Below, in pieces: positions 10,712-41,763 of a stretch of DNA of 42,080 nt. How positions within the stretch are numbered: the stretch's first letter is position 1; every line of letters starts with the position of its first letter. The position numbers and the translations under genes were made by a program. The notes under the pieces were generated by a model, which made no database searches, was not told the origin of the DNA, and was given only the letters and a program-made list of their open reading frames with translations. The DNA lies in the IMG/VR virus record IMGVR_UViG_3300024265_000021, positions 1 to 42,080 of that record. One strand, 5' to 3'. The stretch comes from a virus.

Positions 10712-11358
10712 TGAGAAATATCAACCAAGATCTTATATCAGGACTTGCTTCTGAGACGTACAGACCTTGTGTCCTTATAAAGTTGGATGACGGAGACGAA
10801 CAGATATACTACACCACATGGGATTGCGCTATAGAAAACGGTGGAAATGTCTATTACCCTAGGGGAATGGAATTTAATACTGTTAAATATGGTACATCAT
10901 CTGTTGTAGACAACATTTCAATGAAGCTAGACGATACAAATAGAGCTATTTATTCATTTCTGTCAGCTCAACCTCCAGGTGGAATAAATGCTACTCTTAC
11001 TTTAGCTGTTTTAGATAAGTACTGCGATGTACTAGGTGCAACTGACATCTTTTTAGGAAGCGTTAGCGAATGGTCATATAGTCCAACAATATTGTCTTGT
11101 AGGATAACTTCTATTTTTGTACAATGGACTAATGTAACAACGCATGTGTTTTCTGGTAGTTGTAGGTGGACAATATTTAAAGGAACTGAATGTAAATACG
11201 TAGGCGATGCTACTGAATGCGACAGAAAGTACGATACGTGTGAAGCTTTCGAGAATGTACACAACTTTGGTGGGTTTAGATGGACACAGAGCTTAGAAGA
11301 TAAAGAAGAAACCAAAACATACAAGAATCCAATGAGGTGGCCATATGGTAGGCGGTAG
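10711..11358 (+). CDS. Tail tip hub protein with Cys cluster (DUF2163/lambda gpL-like)
   Basis: The protein has 215 residues. The C-terminal region carries GSCRW, FKGTECKY, ATECDR and YDTCEAF, giving Cys151, 161, 170 and 177 in the spacing of DUF2163/gpL proteins, where four Cys hold an iron-sulfur cluster. NFGGFRW follows, also typical. The N-terminal half is the beta-rich tip domain. It pairs with the next NlpC/P60-like gene, as in GTA gp13-gp14. A virion iron-sulfur cluster is expected from the family; the sequence shows the ligands. Confidence 0.82.
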   Translation: MRNINQDLISGLASETYRPCVLIKLDDGDEQIYYTTWDCAIENGGNVYYPRGMEFNTVKYGTSSVVDNISMKLDDTNRAIYSFLSAQPPGGINATLTLAVLDKYCDVLGATDIFLGSVSEWSYSPTILSCRITSIFVQWTNVTTHVFSGSCRWTIFKGTECKYVGDATECDRKYDTCEAFENVHNFGGFRWTQSLEDKEETKTYKNPMRWPYGRR

Positions 11359-11785
11359 TCGATTATTATCAAGCTTTGTTTACTCACAAATAGGCAAAAA
11401 GTATAATATTGGTTCTAGCGATCCTAACCATACAGATTGTTTTAAGATGTTAGAGGAATATGTATCTTTTCATGACATACAATTCCCAGAAGAGTACGAT
11501 GGGCTGTCTAAAGATAACTACGGTGAAAAATACACAGAAGACCCAGAAGGAACTATGGGCAAACTTCAAAAGTTTATGTCTACTTTTCTTATTAAGGATG
11601 ATGAAAACAAGAGTTTACCTGGATGTGTAATTATTCTTAAGTGTATTAACGATAGAATCGCACTCGGAATAGATTGTGGAAACGGATATGTTCTTACTGT
11701 AAGCGACACCAATGGTTGTGTCGTAGAAAGAAAAATAAACTTTAAGATAGTGGAGGTTTACAAATGCCAGCTGCAATCCCTATAG
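11345..11785 (+). CDS. NlpC/P60-like tail protein, probably catalytically degenerate
   Basis: Size (146 aa) and position after the gpL-like gene fit the GTA gp14/lambda gpK-type peptidase that opens the cell wall during DNA entry. HTDCFKMLEEYV gives the candidate Cys32 in the right context. The usual HVGI strand, which holds the catalytic His, reads ALGI here (Ala106), and the later position often His is Thr118. So the peptidase may be inactive or may use another residue. It overlaps the next gene by 22 bases. Confidence 0.65.
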   Translation: MVGGSRLLSSFVYSQIGKKYNIGSSDPNHTDCFKMLEEYVSFHDIQFPEEYDGLSKDNYGEKYTEDPEGTMGKLQKFMSTFLIKDDENKSLPGCVIILKCINDRIALGIDCGNGYVLTVSDTNGCVVERKINFKIVEVYKCQLQSL

Positions 11786-31021: not shown

Positions 31022-31060
31022 TGTAACAGAAATGTAACGGTAGTGTAACATCCATGTAAC
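31022..31060 (+). repeat. 11-base iteron array B, TGTAAC orientation (4 copies)
   Basis: TGTAAC begins at 31022, 31033, 31044 and 31055, exactly 11 bases apart, in the same orientation as 1700-1749. It is followed by the same GTAGAAGAAAGAAG purine tract. The array lies 12 bases after the small RNA 1 terminator and about 430 bases before terS. Confidence 0.9.
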
Positions 31061-34294: not shown

Positions 34295-35047
34295 ATGATA
34301 ATTACTATAGATGGTAAAGCAGCGACCAAGAAGTCTCCAGTAGCTTATATATTATCAAATAAGTTGGGGTACAAACATATAAACAGTGGGTTAGTATACA
34401 GAGCGCTAGCAGTAGAAGTATTAGAAAGAAAGAAGAATGGTAATCCACCAAGACTTTCTAAGATGGCATGGATAGTATCAGACATGAGGTTTACATCTGA
34501 TAAGATGGAATGGTTGGGATCATCTATAGAAAGACATGCTCACGGAGACACCACGAGAGTTACAAAGTACGTAGAGCAAGAATTAACAAGCCCAGCTACG
34601 ACGCTATGCGCTTCTAAGCTCTCAGTCTATCCAATTGTAAGGGAAGCAGTAGAAAAGTGTCTTAGAGATCAAATTATAGAGTCTGACGTTGTAACTGATG
34701 GAAGGGACATGGGAACTGTAGTATTCCCAGATGCAGATGTTAAGTTCTTCTTTGAATCTGACTTTGAGTCAAGAGTTGGATGGAGACACAAGTATGAAGG
34801 ATCTGAATACGGAGAAAGTAAAGATAGTGTATCTAAAGCTCTAAAAGATAGAGATTCTGACTCTAGTTGGGTTGTTCCAGCTGATAACGCTAATATAATA
34901 GATGTTAGTAAAATGGACGTATATCAGATAGCAGACAAACTATGTGATTGTTTCGTTACTCCCACCAAGGTTTATAGGTCTGGAATAGTAATGACTAGCG
35001 TTCCACCATGTTCTAATTGCAATCAAGTTTGTGGGATGGCTAGATGA
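34295..35047 (+). CDS. Cytidylate kinase-like protein with altered P-loop
   Basis: The 250-residue protein follows the Cmk fold: IITIDGKAATKKSPVAYILS, INSGLVYRALA, VVTDGRDMGTVVFPDADVKF, then KDRDSDSSW and NIIDVSKMDVYQIA. In active CMP kinases the P-loop reads GxxxxGK(S/T); here it is GKAATKKS, with Lys replacing the second Gly. The usual Arg after RDxxDS is Trp. So phosphoryl transfer may be weak, changed or absent. The C-terminal 25 residues add PPCSNCNQVC, a Cys motif not usual in Cmk. It is next to the terminase ATPase (ATGA overlap). Confidence 0.75.
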   Translation: MIITIDGKAATKKSPVAYILSNKLGYKHINSGLVYRALAVEVLERKKNGNPPRLSKMAWIVSDMRFTSDKMEWLGSSIERHAHGDTTRVTKYVEQELTSPATTLCASKLSVYPIVREAVEKCLRDQIIESDVVTDGRDMGTVVFPDADVKFFFESDFESRVGWRHKYEGSEYGESKDSVSKALKDRDSDSSWVVPADNANIIDVSKMDVYQIADKLCDCFVTPTKVYRSGIVMTSVPPCSNCNQVCGMAR

Positions 35048-35796
35048 AAACTAAGATGGTAGATTTCGTTGCATCATCCATGAGTCCATCGTTGTTCATG
35101 TACAAGGCTTTCAATATGAAGCCTGATGAATGGCAATCGAGTCTATTAGATAATTTCCCTCAAGAGTCTTTGTTATTATGTTCGAGGCAGTCTGGTAAGT
35201 CTACAGTTAGTGCAACTCTTGCATTACATCAAGCTGCTTTCAAGAAAGATTCTTTAGTATTAATCGTATCAAAAGCATATCGTCAAGCAGAGGAGCTACT
35301 AAGGAAAGTAAAGGTAGGAATACCCTTTGTCTCCTCTATCTTGGCAGTAGTAAAAGAAAACCAATCAGAGATAGAGTTGGATAATGGTAGCAGAATATTA
35401 AGTCTACCTGGCAGAGAGGACACGATTCGTGCTTATTCAGCTGTATCTCTTATTATAATAGATGAAGCTTCTAGAGTAGGAGAGGAATTATACAACTCAG
35501 TACGTCCTATGTTAGCTATATCAAGAGGTAAGGTCCTAGCCCTTACTACCCCATTCGGAAAGCAAGGATGGTTCCATAAGGCTTGGGTAGAGGATGATGA
35601 CTGGTTCAAGATAAAGATAACTGCTAGCGACTGTCCTAGGATCTCAGATGACTTTATAAACACTGAAATGAAGAGAATGGGTGAATGGTGGGTTAAGCAA
35701 GAATACTTTTGTGAGTTTGTTGATAATGAGACTCAGCTGTTCTCTTATGATGACATAATTAAATGTATAACTGATGAGGTAGAAGTATGGGTTTAG
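35044..35796 (+). CDS. terL: Terminase large subunit, ATPase domain only
   Basis: This 250-residue protein is the packaging motor half of a large terminase. Walker A is SRQSGKST (47-54), Walker B LIIIDEA (136-142), and the coupling motif ALTTPFG is near 166-172. It stops at LFSYDDIIKC, the linker to the nuclease in ordinary TerL. The nuclease domain is encoded separately at 37401-37991, about 1.6 kb downstream. The ATPase ring would translocate DNA through the portal with the nuclease as a separate subunit. Confidence 0.9.
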   Translation: MKTKMVDFVASSMSPSLFMYKAFNMKPDEWQSSLLDNFPQESLLLCSRQSGKSTVSATLALHQAAFKKDSLVLIVSKAYRQAEELLRKVKVGIPFVSSILAVVKENQSEIELDNGSRILSLPGREDTIRAYSAVSLIIIDEASRVGEELYNSVRPMLAISRGKVLALTTPFGKQGWFHKAWVEDDDWFKIKITASDCPRISDDFINTEMKRMGEWWVKQEYFCEFVDNETQLFSYDDIIKCITDEVEVWV

Positions 35797-36562: not shown

Positions 36563-37279
36563 ATGGATAAGTTTTTTAATGCTGTTTATATAGCAAGGAA
36601 AGAGATAGCATGGGTGCTTGTATTAATTATGGTTGGAGTTATAGCATGCTGCGCTCTCACGGGATGCACAAAAGAAGACGTTGATAAGTATAGAGATATG
36701 ACAGACACTGTTATAGATCTCGTAGACGAGATTGATGAGCTAGAGAAGAAGATAGAGGATATAATTGGTGAAGAAGCTCCATGCGCTCCAGACGAAGAAG
36801 CATCTGGTATCATGATGGCTGATCCACCTAGCCAGGGAGGCTATGCTGCTCCACCGTCTAGTCCTAATAATATTAGAAGGTTTGACATTCAAGCAGTGGG
36901 TAATTCCGCACCTGTTAGGATAATAATAGATCCTCAAGGTTCGGTAAACCCATTAAATATGCCTACTTATGTTGAAGGGCTTGGTATTAAGCCAGTTAGT
37001 ACGAACCCACCACCAGTGGAAGTAAGTCCAACACCATCTGTACGACCACTTCCTAGGCCACCGTCACCACCTAGTCCAACTCCAGACATGGAACGACCTT
37101 GTTTGCCTTGTATCACACCTGTATCAGAGATCATTGGCTTTCCATACGTAATAACAGAACCAATCATAGTGCCTACAGCATATGATTGGGGAGACTTCGA
37201 AGGTACTTTATTGTCCCCTGAGTTTGATACTTCACCAGGATGCCTATTCGAGAATGCTTGTTGGAACGGCTGTGCTTGA
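36563..37279 (+). CDS. Putative lipoprotein with coiled coil and Pro-rich stalk, 238 aa
   Basis: N-terminal IAWVLVLIMVGVIACCALTGC ends in LTGC, a lipobox for signal peptidase II, with Cys about residue 35 as the lipidated residue. A short coiled coil (VDEIDELEKKIEDI) follows, then a long Pro-rich region (PSVRPLPRPPSPPSP) and a Cys-containing end. This plan fits surface-exposed phage lipoproteins that block superinfection, or a Pro-rich outer-membrane spanin; I see no i-spanin partner. The 37352 terminator follows. Confidence 0.62.
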   Translation: MDKFFNAVYIARKEIAWVLVLIMVGVIACCALTGCTKEDVDKYRDMTDTVIDLVDEIDELEKKIEDIIGEEAPCAPDEEASGIMMADPPSQGGYAAPPSSPNNIRRFDIQAVGNSAPVRIIIDPQGSVNPLNMPTYVEGLGIKPVSTNPPPVEVSPTPSVRPLPRPPSPPSPTPDMERPCLPCITPVSEIIGFPYVITEPIIVPTAYDWGDFEGTLLSPEFDTSPGCLFENACWNGCA

Positions 37280-37351: not shown

Positions 37352-37380
37352 AAGCCCCCTCCGAAAGGTTGGGGCTTCTT
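37352..37380 (+). terminator. Intrinsic terminator ending the envelope cassette
   Basis: AAGCCCC (37352-37358) pairs with GGGGCTT (37371-37377), with an inner CC-GAAA-GG tetraloop stem, followed by CTTTGTT. It lies 20 bases before the nuclease start, so nuclease and portal transcription must come from read-through or an unseen promoter. Confidence 0.75.
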
Positions 37381-37400
37381 TGTTGGGAGTTGCAACACGA

Positions 37401-37991
37401 ATGTTTGTAAAATACACATTAGGCCTTGATCTAGGGCAGCAAAACGACTATACTGTTTTAACGGTGGCTGAGCCAGTATTTCTTCTCGACGGTTCTCTTG
37501 TAATAAAGATACCTTATATATACAGGTTTCCACTTAGAATGAGCTATGTCTATGTAGTTGAGTATTTAGAAAAGTTCATAATAAACAGAGAGTTAGATGA
37601 ATATGTACTAATAGTAGATCATACTGGAGTAGGAAGACCAGTGGTTGATTTACTTAATGATTACAATATAAATACAATAGGATTGACGATAACAGGTGGT
37701 CATAAATCTAACTGGTCAACAGGAAGATCAGTCACAGTTCCTAAGATAGAATTGATATCAAGGTTGCAAGTTGCAATACAATGTTGCAAGCTCCAACTAG
37801 CAAAGGGAGTTAAGTGTCTAGACGTATTAATAAAGGAATTGATCAACTTTACTATAACTTCTGGTAGAGGAATAAAGATGGAAGCTGCTAGTGGTCATCA
37901 TGATGATACTGTAATGTCTTTAGCTATGGTAGTCTGGTACATAGAAGATAAGTTAAACAGAAGTAAGAAGCTTAGAGTAATAGGAAACTAA
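37401..37991 (+). CDS. terL: Terminase large subunit, nuclease domain as a separate protein
   Basis: ATG at 37401 is used (GGGAG 11 bases upstream; TTG at 37380 would add seven residues). The 196-residue protein is the RNase H-fold nuclease of TerL. TLGLDLGQQNDYTVLTV carries Asp10, LIVDHTGVGRP carries Asp73, and ASGHHDDTVMSLAM carries Asp168/169, the usual metal-binding triad. It cuts concatemers during packaging. No ATPase motifs are present; these are in the 35044 gene. It joins the portal gene without a gap. Confidence 0.9.
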   Translation: MFVKYTLGLDLGQQNDYTVLTVAEPVFLLDGSLVIKIPYIYRFPLRMSYVYVVEYLEKFIINRELDEYVLIVDHTGVGRPVVDLLNDYNINTIGLTITGGHKSNWSTGRSVTVPKIELISRLQVAIQCCKLQLAKGVKCLDVLIKELINFTITSGRGIKMEAASGHHDDTVMSLAMVVWYIEDKLNRSKKLRVIGN

Positions 37992-39557
37992 ATGAATGAT
38001 TTAGCAAAAACTTTAAAGGATGCAAGATCTTCAAGTAAGCAAACTATAAAGGAAGTGTCTGATAAAACCGGTATCTCTAGGTATTGTATTCATGCTATTG
38101 AGAACGGTAAGAACGCTAACCCACCTACTCAGGGAAGACTAAGGAAGCTTGCTGAACATTATAGTATGGATAAGAGTGAACTCTTCAATATGGCTGGATA
38201 TGAGTCCAACAATGACACAGATGAAGTTAAACAACTAATGGTTAAGGCCAGCAGCCTGCAGAGCCAGTTGTCTAATAGGTTTGCATCGTCCAATGAGTCT
38301 ACTCTATACCAAGCTCTGGATTACCCCTCCAACATAACATATGATGACTACAGACAGAGATACAAGAGGCAAGACATAGCCAATAGGGTTGTATCTGCTC
38401 CTGTTCAAGCAACATGGAGTACAGAGCCTTATGTATCTGAGACGGCTGCAGAAGAGACAGCATTTGAGAGAGAGTATGAAGAGTTTGCAGATAGTACAAA
38501 CTTATACCTCTATTTAAGAAAAGTAGATCTATTAGCTTCACTTGGTAGATTTGCTGTTTTATTTCTAGGGTTAGATGATTCAGCTGAGAATGTTTCTATG
38601 CAAGCTGAGAATGTAAAGTCTGTAAACTATCTCAGTGCTATACCAGAAAATAGAGTTACTATAAACTTATGGGATATAGATCCGAAGTCTCCAAGATTTG
38701 GTCTTCCATTAGTTTACCAGATACAGTTTAATGTTGGTGAGGCCAATACTTCTACTAGGCAAGTGCATTGGTCTAGAGTAATACATGTAGCAGAGAATAC
38801 CCTCGAGAGCGAAGTATACGGCATTCCTTTCCTAGAACCTATATATAATAGATTGCTCGGACTAGACAAGCTATGTGGTGGCTCACCAGAAATGTATTGG
38901 AGAGGGGCAAGGCCTGGTTATACTGCACAAGCTCTACAAGACAGCATAGTCAATCAATCTCAACTAAATTCCATAAAGACTGAGTTAACTAACTATATTA
39001 ATGATATGCAACGCTTCTTATTCGTTGAGGGTGTTGATATTAAACCTTTAGCCCCTCAAGTAGTATCTCCTAGTGATCATGTAGAAGTTCAGTTACAGAT
39101 GATTGCAGCTGCAACAGGAATGCCTATAAGGATGCTTACTGGATCTGAGAGAGGAGAATTAGCCTCTACACAGGATGAGAGAGCATGGCTTAAGCTGATA
39201 GAGCAGAGAAGAGAAGCAGTAGCTAAAGAGATAATACTAGTTCCTCTTATAGATAGGTTGATAAGTTTAGATATTATTGCTGAACCAAATTCTGATTATA
39301 CAGTGACATGGGATCCGTTGGTTGTGTTAGAAGAAAAGGATAAGGCAGAGATAGGAAGAATGAGGACTGAGTCTCTTGCTAAGTATGTTAGTACTGCTGG
39401 AGCTAGTGATGTTGTTCCTGTAGACTTGTTCTTGAAAAGAGAGTTGAGCTATTCTGATGAAGAAATAGAGTTAGCCAGTGAGATGACAGATGACAACACA
39501 GAAGAAGAAAATATAGAAGAAGAAACAATAGAAGGAGTTGACACCGATGCGGTGTGA
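37992..39557 (+). CDS. Portal protein (DUF1073-like) with N-terminal XRE-type HTH
   Basis: The protein has 521 residues in one frame. Residues about 4-68 (LAKTLKDARSSSKQTIKEVS, TGISRYCIHAIENGKNANPP, LRKLAEHYSMDKSELF) are a Cro/CI-like helix-turn-helix. From about 95 on, the DUF1073 portal core follows: YRQRYKRQDIANRVVSAP, then TGMPIRMLTGSERGELASTQ and DERAWLKLIEQRR. The end is acidic. The portal forms the vertex channel for DNA. No internal start with a ribosome site separates the HTH from the portal, so they look truly fused. DUF1073 entries are sometimes labelled Acb1-like, but no Acb1 phosphodiesterase domain is visible. Confidence 0.82.
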   Translation: MNDLAKTLKDARSSSKQTIKEVSDKTGISRYCIHAIENGKNANPPTQGRLRKLAEHYSMDKSELFNMAGYESNNDTDEVKQLMVKASSLQSQLSNRFASSNESTLYQALDYPSNITYDDYRQRYKRQDIANRVVSAPVQATWSTEPYVSETAAEETAFEREYEEFADSTNLYLYLRKVDLLASLGRFAVLFLGLDDSAENVSMQAENVKSVNYLSAIPENRVTINLWDIDPKSPRFGLPLVYQIQFNVGEANTSTRQVHWSRVIHVAENTLESEVYGIPFLEPIYNRLLGLDKLCGGSPEMYWRGARPGYTAQALQDSIVNQSQLNSIKTELTNYINDMQRFLFVEGVDIKPLAPQVVSPSDHVEVQLQMIAAATGMPIRMLTGSERGELASTQDERAWLKLIEQRREAVAKEIILVPLIDRLISLDIIAEPNSDYTVTWDPLVVLEEKDKAEIGRMRTESLAKYVSTAGASDVVPVDLFLKRELSYSDEEIELASEMTDDNTEEENIEEETIEGVDTDAV

Positions 39558-39714
39558 GATCTGTAATAGTTGGAACGATATGGTGAAAGAAACACGGCAC
39601 GCAATGGGTGGAAGAACTACACGACGTAGACGTGTTTGTTTAAGCTGTGGCAGTAGGTTTACCACATATGAAATAAGAAAGAGCGAGTATATCAATAGGT
39701 TCGTGGTGAAATAA
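39547..39714 (+). CDS. NrdR-like zinc-ribbon protein, 55 aa
   Basis: It overlaps the portal end by 11 bases. MRCEICNSWNDMVKETRHAM then RTTRRRRVCLSCGSRFTTYE is the zinc ribbon of NrdR, including the RRRR-x-C-x-x-CG-x-RFTTYE block. NrdR is the repressor of ribonucleotide reductase genes. The ATP-cone that NrdR uses to sense nucleotides is absent, since the protein ends about 10 residues after the ribbon. It may bind NrdR boxes of the host without control by nucleotides. Confidence 0.8.
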   Translation: MRCEICNSWNDMVKETRHAMGGRTTRRRRVCLSCGSRFTTYEIRKSEYINRFVVK

Positions 39715-39821
39715 TGTGTGAAATGTTCTGGAGTACTTGTATAATGACTGGAGAGATTGCACTTGTTGGATGGGCTGCCTTTGAATGGTGTCTATACAAT
39801 ACTTTGTCCTTTTGTATATAA
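39714..39821 (+). CDS. Micro-ORF 1, 35 aa membrane-associated peptide
   Basis: Starts by TAATG overlap with the NrdR-like gene. MCEMFWSTCIMTGEIALVGWAAFEWCLYN is aromatic and hydrophobic with several Cys. No strong ribosome site; coupled translation is assumed. Confidence 0.5.
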   Translation: MCEMFWSTCIMTGEIALVGWAAFEWCLYNTLSFCI

Positions 39822-39826
39822 ATTCC

Positions 39827-39855
39827 TTGCTTAAACACTACATGTGTGGTATTAA
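39827..39855 (+). promoter_or_regulatory. Possible promoter of the micro-ORF cassette
   Basis: TTGCTT, 17-base spacer, TATTAA. Both boxes are imperfect. The spacer contains CTACATGTGTGGTA, nearly the same as CTACATGTATAGTA in the terS promoter, which suggests shared control. Confidence 0.4.
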
Positions 39856-39895
39856 CTTAGTTATTGATGATAAATAATACTTTTAGGAGGAACAG

Positions 39896-40009
39896 ATGTT
39901 AGACATAGGTTCAACATTACAAGGAGTACAGCAGTTGATTGTTACTGGTTATATTGTTGTCAATGACTTTATCAATTGGAGTTTATTCGGAAGTTCCATA
40001 TTCTTTTAA
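39896..40009 (+). CDS. Micro-ORF 2, 37 aa
   Basis: AGGAGG five bases before ATG. MLDIGSTLQGVQQLIVTGYI then VVNDFINWSLFGSSIFF, amphipathic to hydrophobic. First member of the strong-ribosome-site series. Confidence 0.6.
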   Translation: MLDIGSTLQGVQQLIVTGYIVVNDFINWSLFGSSIFF

Positions 40010-40021
40010 CAGGAGGTTATT

Positions 40022-40117
40022 ATGGGGACAGCTGTAATTGCTTTATCAGCCTTAGTTGGTTCTGCCTTGGGAATGTCTATCGGTGCTGCTTTTGGCTTAC
40101 TTGTATTACCATTCTAA
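40022..40117 (+). CDS. Micro-ORF 3, 31 aa Gly/Ala-rich membrane peptide
   Basis: AGGAGG five bases before ATG. MGTAVIALSALVGSALGMSI then GAAFGLLVLPF; GxxxG-type spacing in one span suggests helix-helix packing. Confidence 0.6.
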   Translation: MGTAVIALSALVGSALGMSIGAAFGLLVLPF

Positions 40118-40136
40118 TTTATATGGAGGAGAGATC

Positions 40137-40283
40137 ATGTACAGAGGACTCGTAGCATCTAGTACTTTATTAGGTATTACTGGAATGATGATTGCATCTG
40201 GAATAGGTGGAAGCTTTGGTGGGACTGTTGGCTCATTGATTGGATGGTCAGTAGCTTCGTTTTGTGGACTATTAGGAGGATAA
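40137..40283 (+). CDS. Micro-ORF 4, 48 aa two-helix membrane peptide
   Basis: GGAGGAG before ATG; longer in-frame starts upstream lack a ribosome site. MYRGLVASSTLLGITGMMIA, then a Gly-rich turn GIGGSFGGTVG and LIGWSVASFCGLLGG. The final Leu-Gly-Gly codons and stop (GGAGGATAA) form the next ribosome site. Confidence 0.65.
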   Translation: MYRGLVASSTLLGITGMMIASGIGGSFGGTVGSLIGWSVASFCGLLGG

Positions 40284-40287
40284 TGCA

Positions 40288-40407
40288 ATGGCTACAGTTA
40301 TTGGAGTTGCTATAGGTTGTATCGCTGGCGGAGCAGGTTGCTTTGCTGCTGGGATGGGAACTGCATTAATCACTCAGTTTGTCATTAGTTCAATTGGAGG
40401 TATGTAA
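40288..40407 (+). CDS. Micro-ORF 5, 39 aa Gly/Ala-rich peptide
   Basis: Uses the AGGAGGA at the end of micro-ORF 4. MATVIGVAIGCIAGGAGCFA then AGMGTALITQFVISSIGGM; Cys and Gly in a helical span. Stop overlaps the next ATG (TAATG). Confidence 0.6.
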   Translation: MATVIGVAIGCIAGGAGCFAAGMGTALITQFVISSIGGM

Positions 40408-40583
40408 TGATTGGATTTGTAATAGGTGCAGCTTGTTTTAGTTTCTTATCCGTTGCAACACCGTTAGCCGTTGGCATTGCTGGAACTGCTGCTTGTTCAG
40501 CTATTGGTGGTGCTGCAGTTGCTGTTGTGACAGGAGCTTCGTGTGCTATGTTGACTGTAGTTCCTATGGTACTAGGAGGATAA
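40407..40583 (+). CDS. Micro-ORF 6, 58 aa two-span membrane protein
   Basis: GGAGG six bases upstream inside the previous ORF. Two Ala/Gly-rich hydrophobic stretches (about 2-30 and 34-56) with four Cys, ending MVLGG from GGAGGATAA. Its composition resembles bacteriocin-like hydrophobic peptides, without any leader or modification genes. Confidence 0.62.
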   Translation: MIGFVIGAACFSFLSVATPLAVGIAGTAACSAIGGAAVAVVTGASCAMLTVVPMVLGG

Positions 40584-40584
40584 G

Positions 40585-40710
40585 ATGAGTTGTTTAGATA
40601 TCATGGCTTGTAATGCTTGTATCGCTTTGATAGATTGTATCGAGGGAAGCGCTTTATTAACGTCAATTCTAGAATGTTTCGGATCAAGTCTGATGCCAAT
40701 AGGAGGATAA
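40585..40710 (+). CDS. Micro-ORF 7, 41 aa Cys-rich peptide
   Basis: AGGAGGA before ATG. MSCLDIMACNACIALIDCIE then GSALLTSILECFGSSLMPIGG, with five Cys at regular spacing and an acidic-hydrophobic helix. Ends IGG from GGAGGATAA. Confidence 0.6.
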   Translation: MSCLDIMACNACIALIDCIEGSALLTSILECFGSSLMPIGG

Positions 40711-40712
40711 TA

Positions 40713-40856
40713 ATGCCACCTGTAATGGTCGCGGTTTCTGATTATTTTATAAGCAATGCATATGGCCAACCTGTTATTGATTGTTGGCCAGTGTGTGATC
40801 TTATTCAAGCTGGGATTGAAGCTATCCATCTAGTGTGGCTTCCTTTCTTGCCTTAG
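40713..40856 (+). CDS. Micro-ORF 8, 47 aa
   Basis: AGGAGGA precedes ATG, which decides this start over in-frame upstream codons. MPPVMVAVSDYFISNAYGQP then DCWPVCDLIQAGIEAIHLVW. It has a hydrophobic C-terminal helix and two Cys. Confidence 0.6.
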   Translation: MPPVMVAVSDYFISNAYGQPVIDCWPVCDLIQAGIEAIHLVWLPFLP

Positions 40857-40877
40857 AACAAATAGGGGAGACGACGT

Positions 40878-40970
40878 ATGGGATGTCTTCAAGTATTTCA
40901 AGGTGTAGTAATTTTTGGAGTAGACTTAGCTGTGTATATTTCTGATGCAATTTATCTTATAACACATTAA
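40878..40970 (+). CDS. Micro-ORF 9, 30 aa
   Basis: AGGGGAG seven bases upstream. MGCLQVFQGVVIFGVDLAVY then ISDAIYLITH, one amphipathic or membrane helix. Confidence 0.55.
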   Translation: MGCLQVFQGVVIFGVDLAVYISDAIYLITH

Positions 40971-40983
40971 TGGATGATTAAAC

Positions 40984-41103
40984 ATGTCGATCGATGGAGT
41001 TTTATATGGGATTAATAGTGTTGCGGCTGAGATAATAGGATCGTATTCTTGTGGCATGATCTATTGTTGCCTTGCCTGCTTTGGGTTTAATGACTTGCGA
41101 TAA
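40984..41103 (+). CDS. Micro-ORF 10, 39 aa
   Basis: Weak GGATGA upstream. MSIDGVLYGINSVAAEIIGS then YSCGMIYCCLACFGFNDLR, with a Cys-rich hydrophobic end (four Cys). Confidence 0.48.
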   Translation: MSIDGVLYGINSVAAEIIGSYSCGMIYCCLACFGFNDLR

Positions 41104-41114
41104 AGGAGTTAAAT

Positions 41115-41258
41115 GTGTGTGGGCTTTTGCCTAATATTTGCTTGCAAACCAATACAGCCATATTCGCACAGGAATTCTGGTTTAAAGTAGCCGACTTTCT
41201 TAAAGTAGGCCCTGAATTAACGATGTGGTGTGACTTGGCTTGGTTGTTTGGAGGATAG
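41115..41258 (+). CDS. Micro-ORF 11, 47 aa, GTG start
   Basis: AAAGGAG six bases before GTG. The GTG frame gives 47 residues ending DLAWLFGG, with the stop in GGAGGATAG as in its neighbours. An overlapping ATG at 41113 gives only 25 residues, so GTG is preferred. Confidence 0.48.
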   Translation: MCGLLPNICLQTNTAIFAQEFWFKVADFLKVGPELTMWCDLAWLFGG

Positions 41259-41263
41259 GAACA

Positions 41264-41347
41264 ATGTTAAATTATATTGTGGGTATTAATAACTATGGGG
41301 GTAATATAATGGAAGTGGAATTTGGCTATTGTTCTCGTTTTTGGTAG
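41264..41347 (+). CDS. Micro-ORF 12, 27 aa
   Basis: GGAGGA before ATG. MLNYIVGINNYGGNIMEVEF then GYCSRFW. It is more polar than its neighbours. It may mainly carry translation into the overlapping next frame. Confidence 0.4.
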   Translation: MLNYIVGINNYGGNIMEVEFGYCSRFW

Positions 41348-41420
41348 TGTTTCTGTTGTTGCTACTTGTGTGGCAGCAGTGTCTAGTCTCGCTGCTGCTT
41401 ACATATATCTAGGCTTATAG
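41322..41420 (+). CDS. Micro-ORF 13, 32 aa membrane peptide, TTG start
   Basis: It lies in another frame overlapping micro-ORF 12. MAIVLVFGSVSVVATCVAAV then SSLAAAYIYLGL is clearly a membrane span. The TTG start has only GGAAGTGG upstream; a single-base assembly error joining it to the ATG at 41309 is the alternative. Confidence 0.42.
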   Translation: MAIVLVFGSVSVVATCVAAVSSLAAAYIYLGL

Positions 41421-41430
41421 GGTTCTTAAT

Positions 41431-41562
41431 ATGGATAGTGAACAACTAATAGGTGTTTTACTTGGAATATCTACAGCAGCCTCAATTACAGCCTCTCTAG
41501 CTAGTCTTGTCTGTGCAGGTGTAGTTGTAGTAGGATGCGTACTTGGTTGTATGCTCATTTAG
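41431..41562 (+). CDS. Micro-ORF 14, 43 aa membrane peptide
   Basis: Weak AGGG upstream. MDSEQLIGVLLGISTAASIT then ASLASLVCAGVVVVGCVLGC: short polar start and a long Ala/Gly/Val span with three Cys. Confidence 0.52.
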   Translation: MDSEQLIGVLLGISTAASITASLASLVCAGVVVVGCVLGCMLI

Positions 41563-41579
41563 GGAATAGGAGTATTGTT

Positions 41580-41696
41580 ATGGAATTTATTGCAGGGTTC
41601 TTTCTAGGTGGGTGTCTTGGTTGTGGTGCGGCAGCGATAGCGACTGCGGCTACTTATTGTTCACTTATTGTATACCACCTAGTAGATGGAGTTTAA
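41580..41696 (+). CDS. Micro-ORF 15, 38 aa membrane peptide
   Basis: AGGAG seven bases before ATG. MEFIAGFFLGGCLGCGAAAI then ATAATYCSLIVYHLVDGV; GG and Cys motif similar to micro-ORF 5. Confidence 0.55.
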   Translation: MEFIAGFFLGGCLGCGAAAIATAATYCSLIVYHLVDGV

Positions 41697-41763
41697 CCAA
41701 GAGAGTATAGAGGAGTTTGTATACTTGGTTGCTTCTGCCAATATAACAAGAGGATACAGATGA
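41686..41763 (+). CDS. 25-residue ORF leading into the thymidylate synthase gene
   Basis: MEFNQESIEEFVYLVASANI then TRGYR. Starts inside micro-ORF 15 and its stop overlaps the next ATG (ATGA), so it may be a coupling peptide. It is polar, unlike the others. Confidence 0.4.
   Translation: MEFNQESIEEFVYLVASANITRGYR

Follow-up and report, generated by a model that had tools for sequence, protein, structure and literature searches.

Classical holins (classes I-III), which tailed phages produce late, are small membrane proteins generally described with basic tails. In Gordonia phages, lysis cassettes comprise up to four consecutive, non-duplicated small membrane proteins with 1-4 helices (PMC9671378). 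Other small hydrophobic or transmembrane proteins are described as well: CdzC and CdzD of Caulobacter, of 86 and 84 aa, are exported by type I secretion and have an immunity protein (PMC5380434), and cluster AU Arthrobacter phages encode about 20 small transmembrane proteins of unknown function per genome, averaging 137 aa (PMC5679793). Here we describe a cassette of very small ORFs, located on the + strand at positions 39714-41696 of an IMG/VR virus record (IMGVR_UViG_3300024265_000021; the whole stretch of 42,080 nucleotides is referred to as the window). It follows the portal and a zinc-ribbon gene and precedes a thymidylate synthase-like gene, and lies between the portal and the head protease, on the same strand (Table 1).

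Layout of the cassette and its genome

A 127-base direct repeat is present at both ends of the window, from which we conclude that the genome is circularised, measures about 41,950 bp and is probably complete. Its genes form a tailed-phage set: split terminase, portal, head protease, capsid, tape measure and lambda J-like fibre. Genes for SSB, RecT and DnaC/IstB-like proteins point to a bacterial host, and no integrase was recognised in the phage. In the search for a host, scanning genomes with only the portal as query gave no match, and the scan with a wide portal alignment returned 19 loci of 31-42% identity, scattered over unrelated groups.

The cassette is a real, tightly spaced microprotein operon within the head-gene region, with gaps of -1 to 21 bases from ORF b to k. 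The original prediction of a chain of tiny ORFs held in its coordinates and in the Gly-Gly ends, where GGAGGATA[AG] closes d, f, g and k; its figure of about fifteen members is better given as 13-15, since the 27-aa l is doubtful, l2 needs a TTG and k a GTG start. Shine-Dalgarno (SD) pairing energies of b-h range from -9.3 to -11.0 kcal/mol, whereas the median over 51 other phage genes is -6.4; for all 15 ORFs the difference from other phage genes is not significant (P 0.09). A promoter may be located in the gap between a and b, which is 61/70 identical to the related contig L002 (87%), whereas the adjoining ORFs a and b reach about 70%, and is absent in the second related contig, L003. The motif TTGCTT-17-TATTAA was read there by eye; a consensus scan did not report it.

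Table 1. Coordinates of the cassette ORFs and of other features, numbered by position in the window.
Feature	Coordinates	Strand	Product	Remarks
Cytidylate kinase gene	34295-35047			PF02224, E 4.1e-34
Portal	37992-39557			upstream of cassette; N-terminal helix-turn-helix domain
NrdR-like zinc ribbon protein	39538..39714	+		not a cassette member; MRCEIC... from ATG at 39547; Pfam PF22811, E 6.6e-14; L002 orthologue 80% identical
ORF a	39714..39821	+	35 aa	three conserved Glu, 4 Cys; weak SD; L002 orthologue 66%, absent in L003
Noncoding gap before b	39822..39895	+		conserved; possible promoter
ORF b	39896..40009	+	37 aa	invariant Q13, N23, D24; orthologues in L002, L003
ORF c	40022..40117	+	31 aa	Gly-zipper membrane span
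ORF d	40137..40283	+	48 aa	Gly-zipper helical hairpin (predicted); best conserved member, 77-83% identity
ORF e	40288..40407	+	39 aa	Gly/Ala-rich; AIGC.AGGAGCFAAGMGT nearly invariant
ORF f	40407..40583	+	58 aa	two hydrophobic stretches; start overlaps e stop
ORF g	40585..40710	+	41 aa	acidic, 5 Cys; window only
ORF h	40713..40856	+	47 aa	acidic helix within the C-terminal half (predicted); 59% identity; invariant D10, D23, C24, D29, Q32, E36, H39, W42
ORF i	40878..40970	+	30 aa	invariant D16 and D23
ORF j	40984..41103	+	39 aa	L003 orthologue 44%, shuffle z 10.9
ORF k	41115..41258	+	47 aa	GTG start; L003 orthologue, shuffle z 12.5
ORF l	41264..41347	+	27 aa	doubtful; good SD; without orthologue
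ORF l2	41322..41420	+	32 aa	TTG start, hydrophobic; window only
ORF m	41431..41562	+	43 aa	strongest membrane span; weak SD; window only
ORF n	41580..41696	+	38 aa	Gly/Ala/Cys-rich; window only
Thymidylate synthase-like gene	41760 to 490, across record ends			L014 orthologue matches PF00303, E 2.2e-10

Several other features of the genome were observed. The large terminase is split into ATPase and nuclease genes (35044-35796 and 37380-37991) with other genes between them; the terminase of L016, L038 and L039 looks split too, and in L038 a glutamate dehydrogenase-like gene lies between the halves (L122:8081-9427, presumably of this member). The gene at 36563-37279 encodes a putative lipoprotein, possibly spanin-like, whose start looks coiled-coil-like and which includes a Pro-rich part, as judged by eye. 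The helix-turn-helix domain of the portal is also found in L002, L003, L004 and, by sequence, in L038, and a similar helix-turn-helix protein is encoded by a separate gene in L016 (3356-3757). Outside the cassette, a 71-aa ORF (742-957) also has a Gly-Gly end, on GGAGGTTAG; it weakly resembles the L003 version of ORF k (shuffle z 4.8) and is absent from L014. Two inverted GTTACA arrays of seven and five copies with exact 11-base spacing (1429-1500 and 1700-1749) sit within a 600-base noncoding stretch, with identical copy numbers in L014 (2106 and 2367), and four further copies of TGTAAC occur at 31022, between divergent operons. In layout they resemble phased operators, iterons or centromere sites.

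Conservation and history of the cassette

To score the chain of ORFs, ATG-started frames of at least 25 codons with an SD site were counted within 39701-41700. The count was 12, compared with a mean of 1.00 (sd 0.91, maximum 5) in 500 dinucleotide shuffles and with one on the antisense strand. The same cassette with unchanged gene order was found in two contigs from IMG/VR, L002 (84-86% identity in the portal) and L003 (72%). Rather than being broken by stops in these relatives, the frames of seven ORFs (b, c, d, e, f, h and i) are open in all three phages, while a is common to the window and L002, and j and k to the window and L003. Nine ORFs thus have orthologues in one or two related phages, and a tenth, k, is conserved by similarity, its identity being supported by the L003 orthologue. 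Pooled pN/pS was 0.46, 0.45 and 0.36 for the three pairs and dN/dS 0.30-0.33 (calculated with k left out). Substitutions are in excess at third positions (P below 1e-7, with sites treated as independent), numbering 90/56/135 at codon positions 1/2/3 between the window and L002. Together, the ORF chain beyond shuffles, the orthologues, the purifying selection and the third-position excess show that these are real proteins: at least nine cassette ORFs encode conserved proteins under purifying selection, which are hydrophobic, poor in Lys and Arg and mostly led by strong ribosome sites, and the original view that the cassette is selected and not random was borne out. For g, l, l2, m and n no orthologue was found and the evidence consists of ribosome sites and composition.

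Recoding into one long protein was ruled out, as the ORFs change frame and the intervening stops are kept in the relatives. Duplication among members was also considered as an origin and yielded weak pair scores only.

The cassette differs from its neighbours in divergence. Amino acid identity to L002 is 62% for the cassette, 86% for the portal and 98% for the major capsid protein. At the DNA level, L002 and L003 are 86% identical in the cassette and 99% at the start of the next gene versus 70.5% in the portal stretch; the cassette and the following gene therefore appear to have been exchanged. In L002 this next gene encodes a repeat-rich protein (its end is L014:2-883), and both contigs stop inside it; the window carries ORFs l to n in its place. 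A C1q-like assignment of the repeat-rich gene was not supported by Pfam.

The position of the cassette, a feature that the original prediction had missed, is that of another gene. In six outgroup phages (L005, L007, L016, L038, L039 and L040) this slot, after the portal directly or one gene later, is occupied by a MuF-like minor head gene. A MuF-like profile built from the six outgroup proteins had no match in the whole window or in the 39-kb L002 record, which is possibly incomplete, and a MuF gene remnant was accordingly rejected. The cassette marks a phage clade without the MuF-like gene that usually lies beside the portal. The same slot also holds other inserted genes, namely a ThyX-like gene in L039 (by eye) and the thymidylate synthase-like gene in the window.

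Composition and hydropathy of the products

Also missed initially were the near-absence of Lys and Arg and the excess of Cys. The 15 products, 592 residues in total, contain 28 Asp+Glu, 33 Cys (5.6%) and only 5 Lys+Arg (0.8%), a scarcity partly expected of hydrophobic peptides and matched by 8% of spurious short ORFs of the window. In six larger proteins of this phage, Lys+Arg make up 10.1% and Cys 0.7%, the Cys content of the cassette thus being eight times higher. Eleven of the 15 ORFs are without any Lys or Arg, and the orthologues contain 4 among 317 and 2 among 323 residues. The two small membrane ORFs 959-1117 and 1107-1280, by comparison, contain 4 and 6 Lys/Arg.

Hydropathy agreed with small membrane-type proteins, but the original description of mostly membrane spans holds for part of the set. 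The test was passed by c, d, e, f, l2, m and n (KD19 at least 1.66); g, i and j also pass on KD19 (at least 1.64 in c-g, i, j, l2, m and n) yet carry acidic residues, whereas in a, b, h and k hydrophobic sequence is mixed with acidic residues and the span scores are poor, and l fails as well. By eye, the products fall into two kinds: Gly/Ala-rich spans with no acids inside (c, d, e, f, l2, m and n) and hydrophobic helices with acids, some of them invariant (a, b, g, h, i, j and k). The claimed GxxxG spacing was enriched when pooled over the Gly-rich six (15 versus 7.6 in shuffles, P 0.002), though individually only in c. When b, g, h, i, j and k were examined for an amphipathic stripe of acids, the values lay above shuffle means, mostly not significantly. 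The AlphaFold2 model predicts with modest confidence that d is a helical hairpin (helices 3-24 and 27-47, mean pLDDT 69). The model of h was set aside because its confidence was too low. By eye, e and i look like ATP-synthase c subunit.

Possible functions and relation to known systems

No meaningful match was obtained for the cassette ORFs in Pfam, PHROGs (searched with a-i) or PDB sequences, nor for d in phage records by tblastn. Viral-contig scans with d, e, b and h returned at most the two known relatives, L002 and L003, and runs of three or more such ORFs were confined to this clade (2.67 Mb of loci, both strands counted). The sole PHROGs holin match among a-i was d at E 0.49, which is chance level, and no exclusion family was matched in the PHROGs and Pfam scans. 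The charged, usually basic C-terminal tail expected of holins is missing in the cassette ORFs. Among the larger window ORFs no endolysin family was found, and a tail-region gene (11345-11785) weakly matched Peptidase_C92 (E 0.018). The original prediction had taken the lack of a recognisable lysis gene elsewhere as a pointer to lysis. The lack is true of the window, but the argument fails: in outgroup phages without the cassette (L119-L124), a scan of the unassigned proteins, with clearly structural ones left out, gave only an NlpC/P60 match and no endolysin or holin family, which makes the absence a weak argument for a lysis role. The lysis genes of this lineage seem simply to be unrecognised. 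Furthermore, the ORFs at 959-1117 and 1107-1280 encode two small membrane proteins with charged tails, kept in L014 (1646-1804 and 1794-1967), which are more ordinary holin candidates outside the cassette. With these candidates and with the basic tails missing, the lysis reading is weaker than first claimed.

Action on the membrane is the likeliest and simplest reading of the sequences. We tentatively propose, as a possibility somewhat short of even odds, that the cassette is a late multi-component set permeabilising or remodelling the host cytoplasmic membrane. The proteins would be made late together with the head proteins, as their position suggests, and would enter the cytoplasmic membrane, where Gly-zipper hairpins (c, d, e, f, perhaps l2, m and n) could pack with the acidic helices (a, b, g, h, i, j and k). 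One or more hetero-oligomers might thereby form and permeabilise or remodel the membrane, holin-like in a broad sense, with lysis timing as one possible outcome among others. This proposal is based on the purifying selection, the hydropathy of c, d, e, f, g, i, j, l2, m and n, the pooled GxxxG enrichment, the hairpin model of d, the position between portal and protease, the tight gaps and the conserved acids in b, h and i. Against it stand the near-absence of Lys and Arg, unlike basic-tailed holins, the poor span scores of a, b, h and k, the more ordinary holin candidates elsewhere, and the outgroup phages that manage without the cassette.

The faster evolution of the cassette relative to portal and capsid, and its separate history in L002 and L003, as expected of an exchanged host-interaction module, would also suit superinfection exclusion or host-envelope alteration, by which the membrane of the infected cell is changed so that related phages cannot inject or the cell survives through late infection. 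We regard this as rather unlikely, given the location in the head-gene run and not with early genes, the lack of a matched exclusion family and the lack of a recognised integrase. Less probable still is a virion or ejection component, in which the proteins stand in for the MuF-like minor head protein, become packaged and subsequently make a path across the membrane at DNA entry: the cassette does sit in the MuF slot of the six outgroup phages and the MuF-like gene is missing from the window and L002 records, but the other genes inserted in this slot mean that the replacement may be coincidence, and nothing ties these hydrophobic products to the capsid.

In their small size and their hydrophobic sequences rich in GxxxG, the products recall Gly-zipper bacteriocin-like peptides that kill competitors, such as two-peptide bacteriocins or CdzC/CdzD, which are similar in look (PMC5380434). 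No secretion system, leader or immunity gene was recognised in the phage, the set comprises many different members rather than one to three, and no sequence matched, which makes such a role very improbable. That the frames are not expressed as proteins, and merely accompany a conserved RNA or result from base composition, would fit the lack of orthologues for g, l, l2, m and n; the codon-position bias, the dN/dS, the 12 ORFs against one expected and the absence of any Rfam match in the window leave this reading hardly credible.

If the products do form one membrane assembly, it would be unusually complex and built of microproteins only. It is conceivable, if doubtful, that about ten different, nearly Lys/Arg-free microproteins from separate genes, Gly-zipper hairpins and acidic helices together, constitute a phage membrane machine to which no known lysis, exclusion or ejection system corresponds. 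For mutagenesis, clear targets are given by the conserved acids and by the near-absence of Lys and Arg. Moreover, as gene finders often drop genes of 30-58 codons, such operons can be missed in phage annotation.

From classical holins the cassette differs in its missing basic tail and in its far larger number of genes. Cluster AU phages likewise carry many small, mostly single-span proteins in one siphovirus, but these are larger and not described as one tightly spaced cassette (PMC5679793). The products share with CdzC/CdzD the character of small hydrophobic proteins with repeated GxxxG (PMC5380434); type I secretion and immunity genes were, however, not found here, the neighbours being zinc ribbon, thymidylate synthase-like and structural genes, and window scans detected no ABC exporter family. 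The Gordonia genes adjoin lysA or are linked to lysA by homologues, whereas here no endolysin is nearby and Lys and Arg are almost absent; there are three to four genes in Gordonia and 9-14 here, and the likeness to these multi-holin cassettes lies in the consecutive small membrane proteins encoded in one operon-like phage region (PMC9671378).
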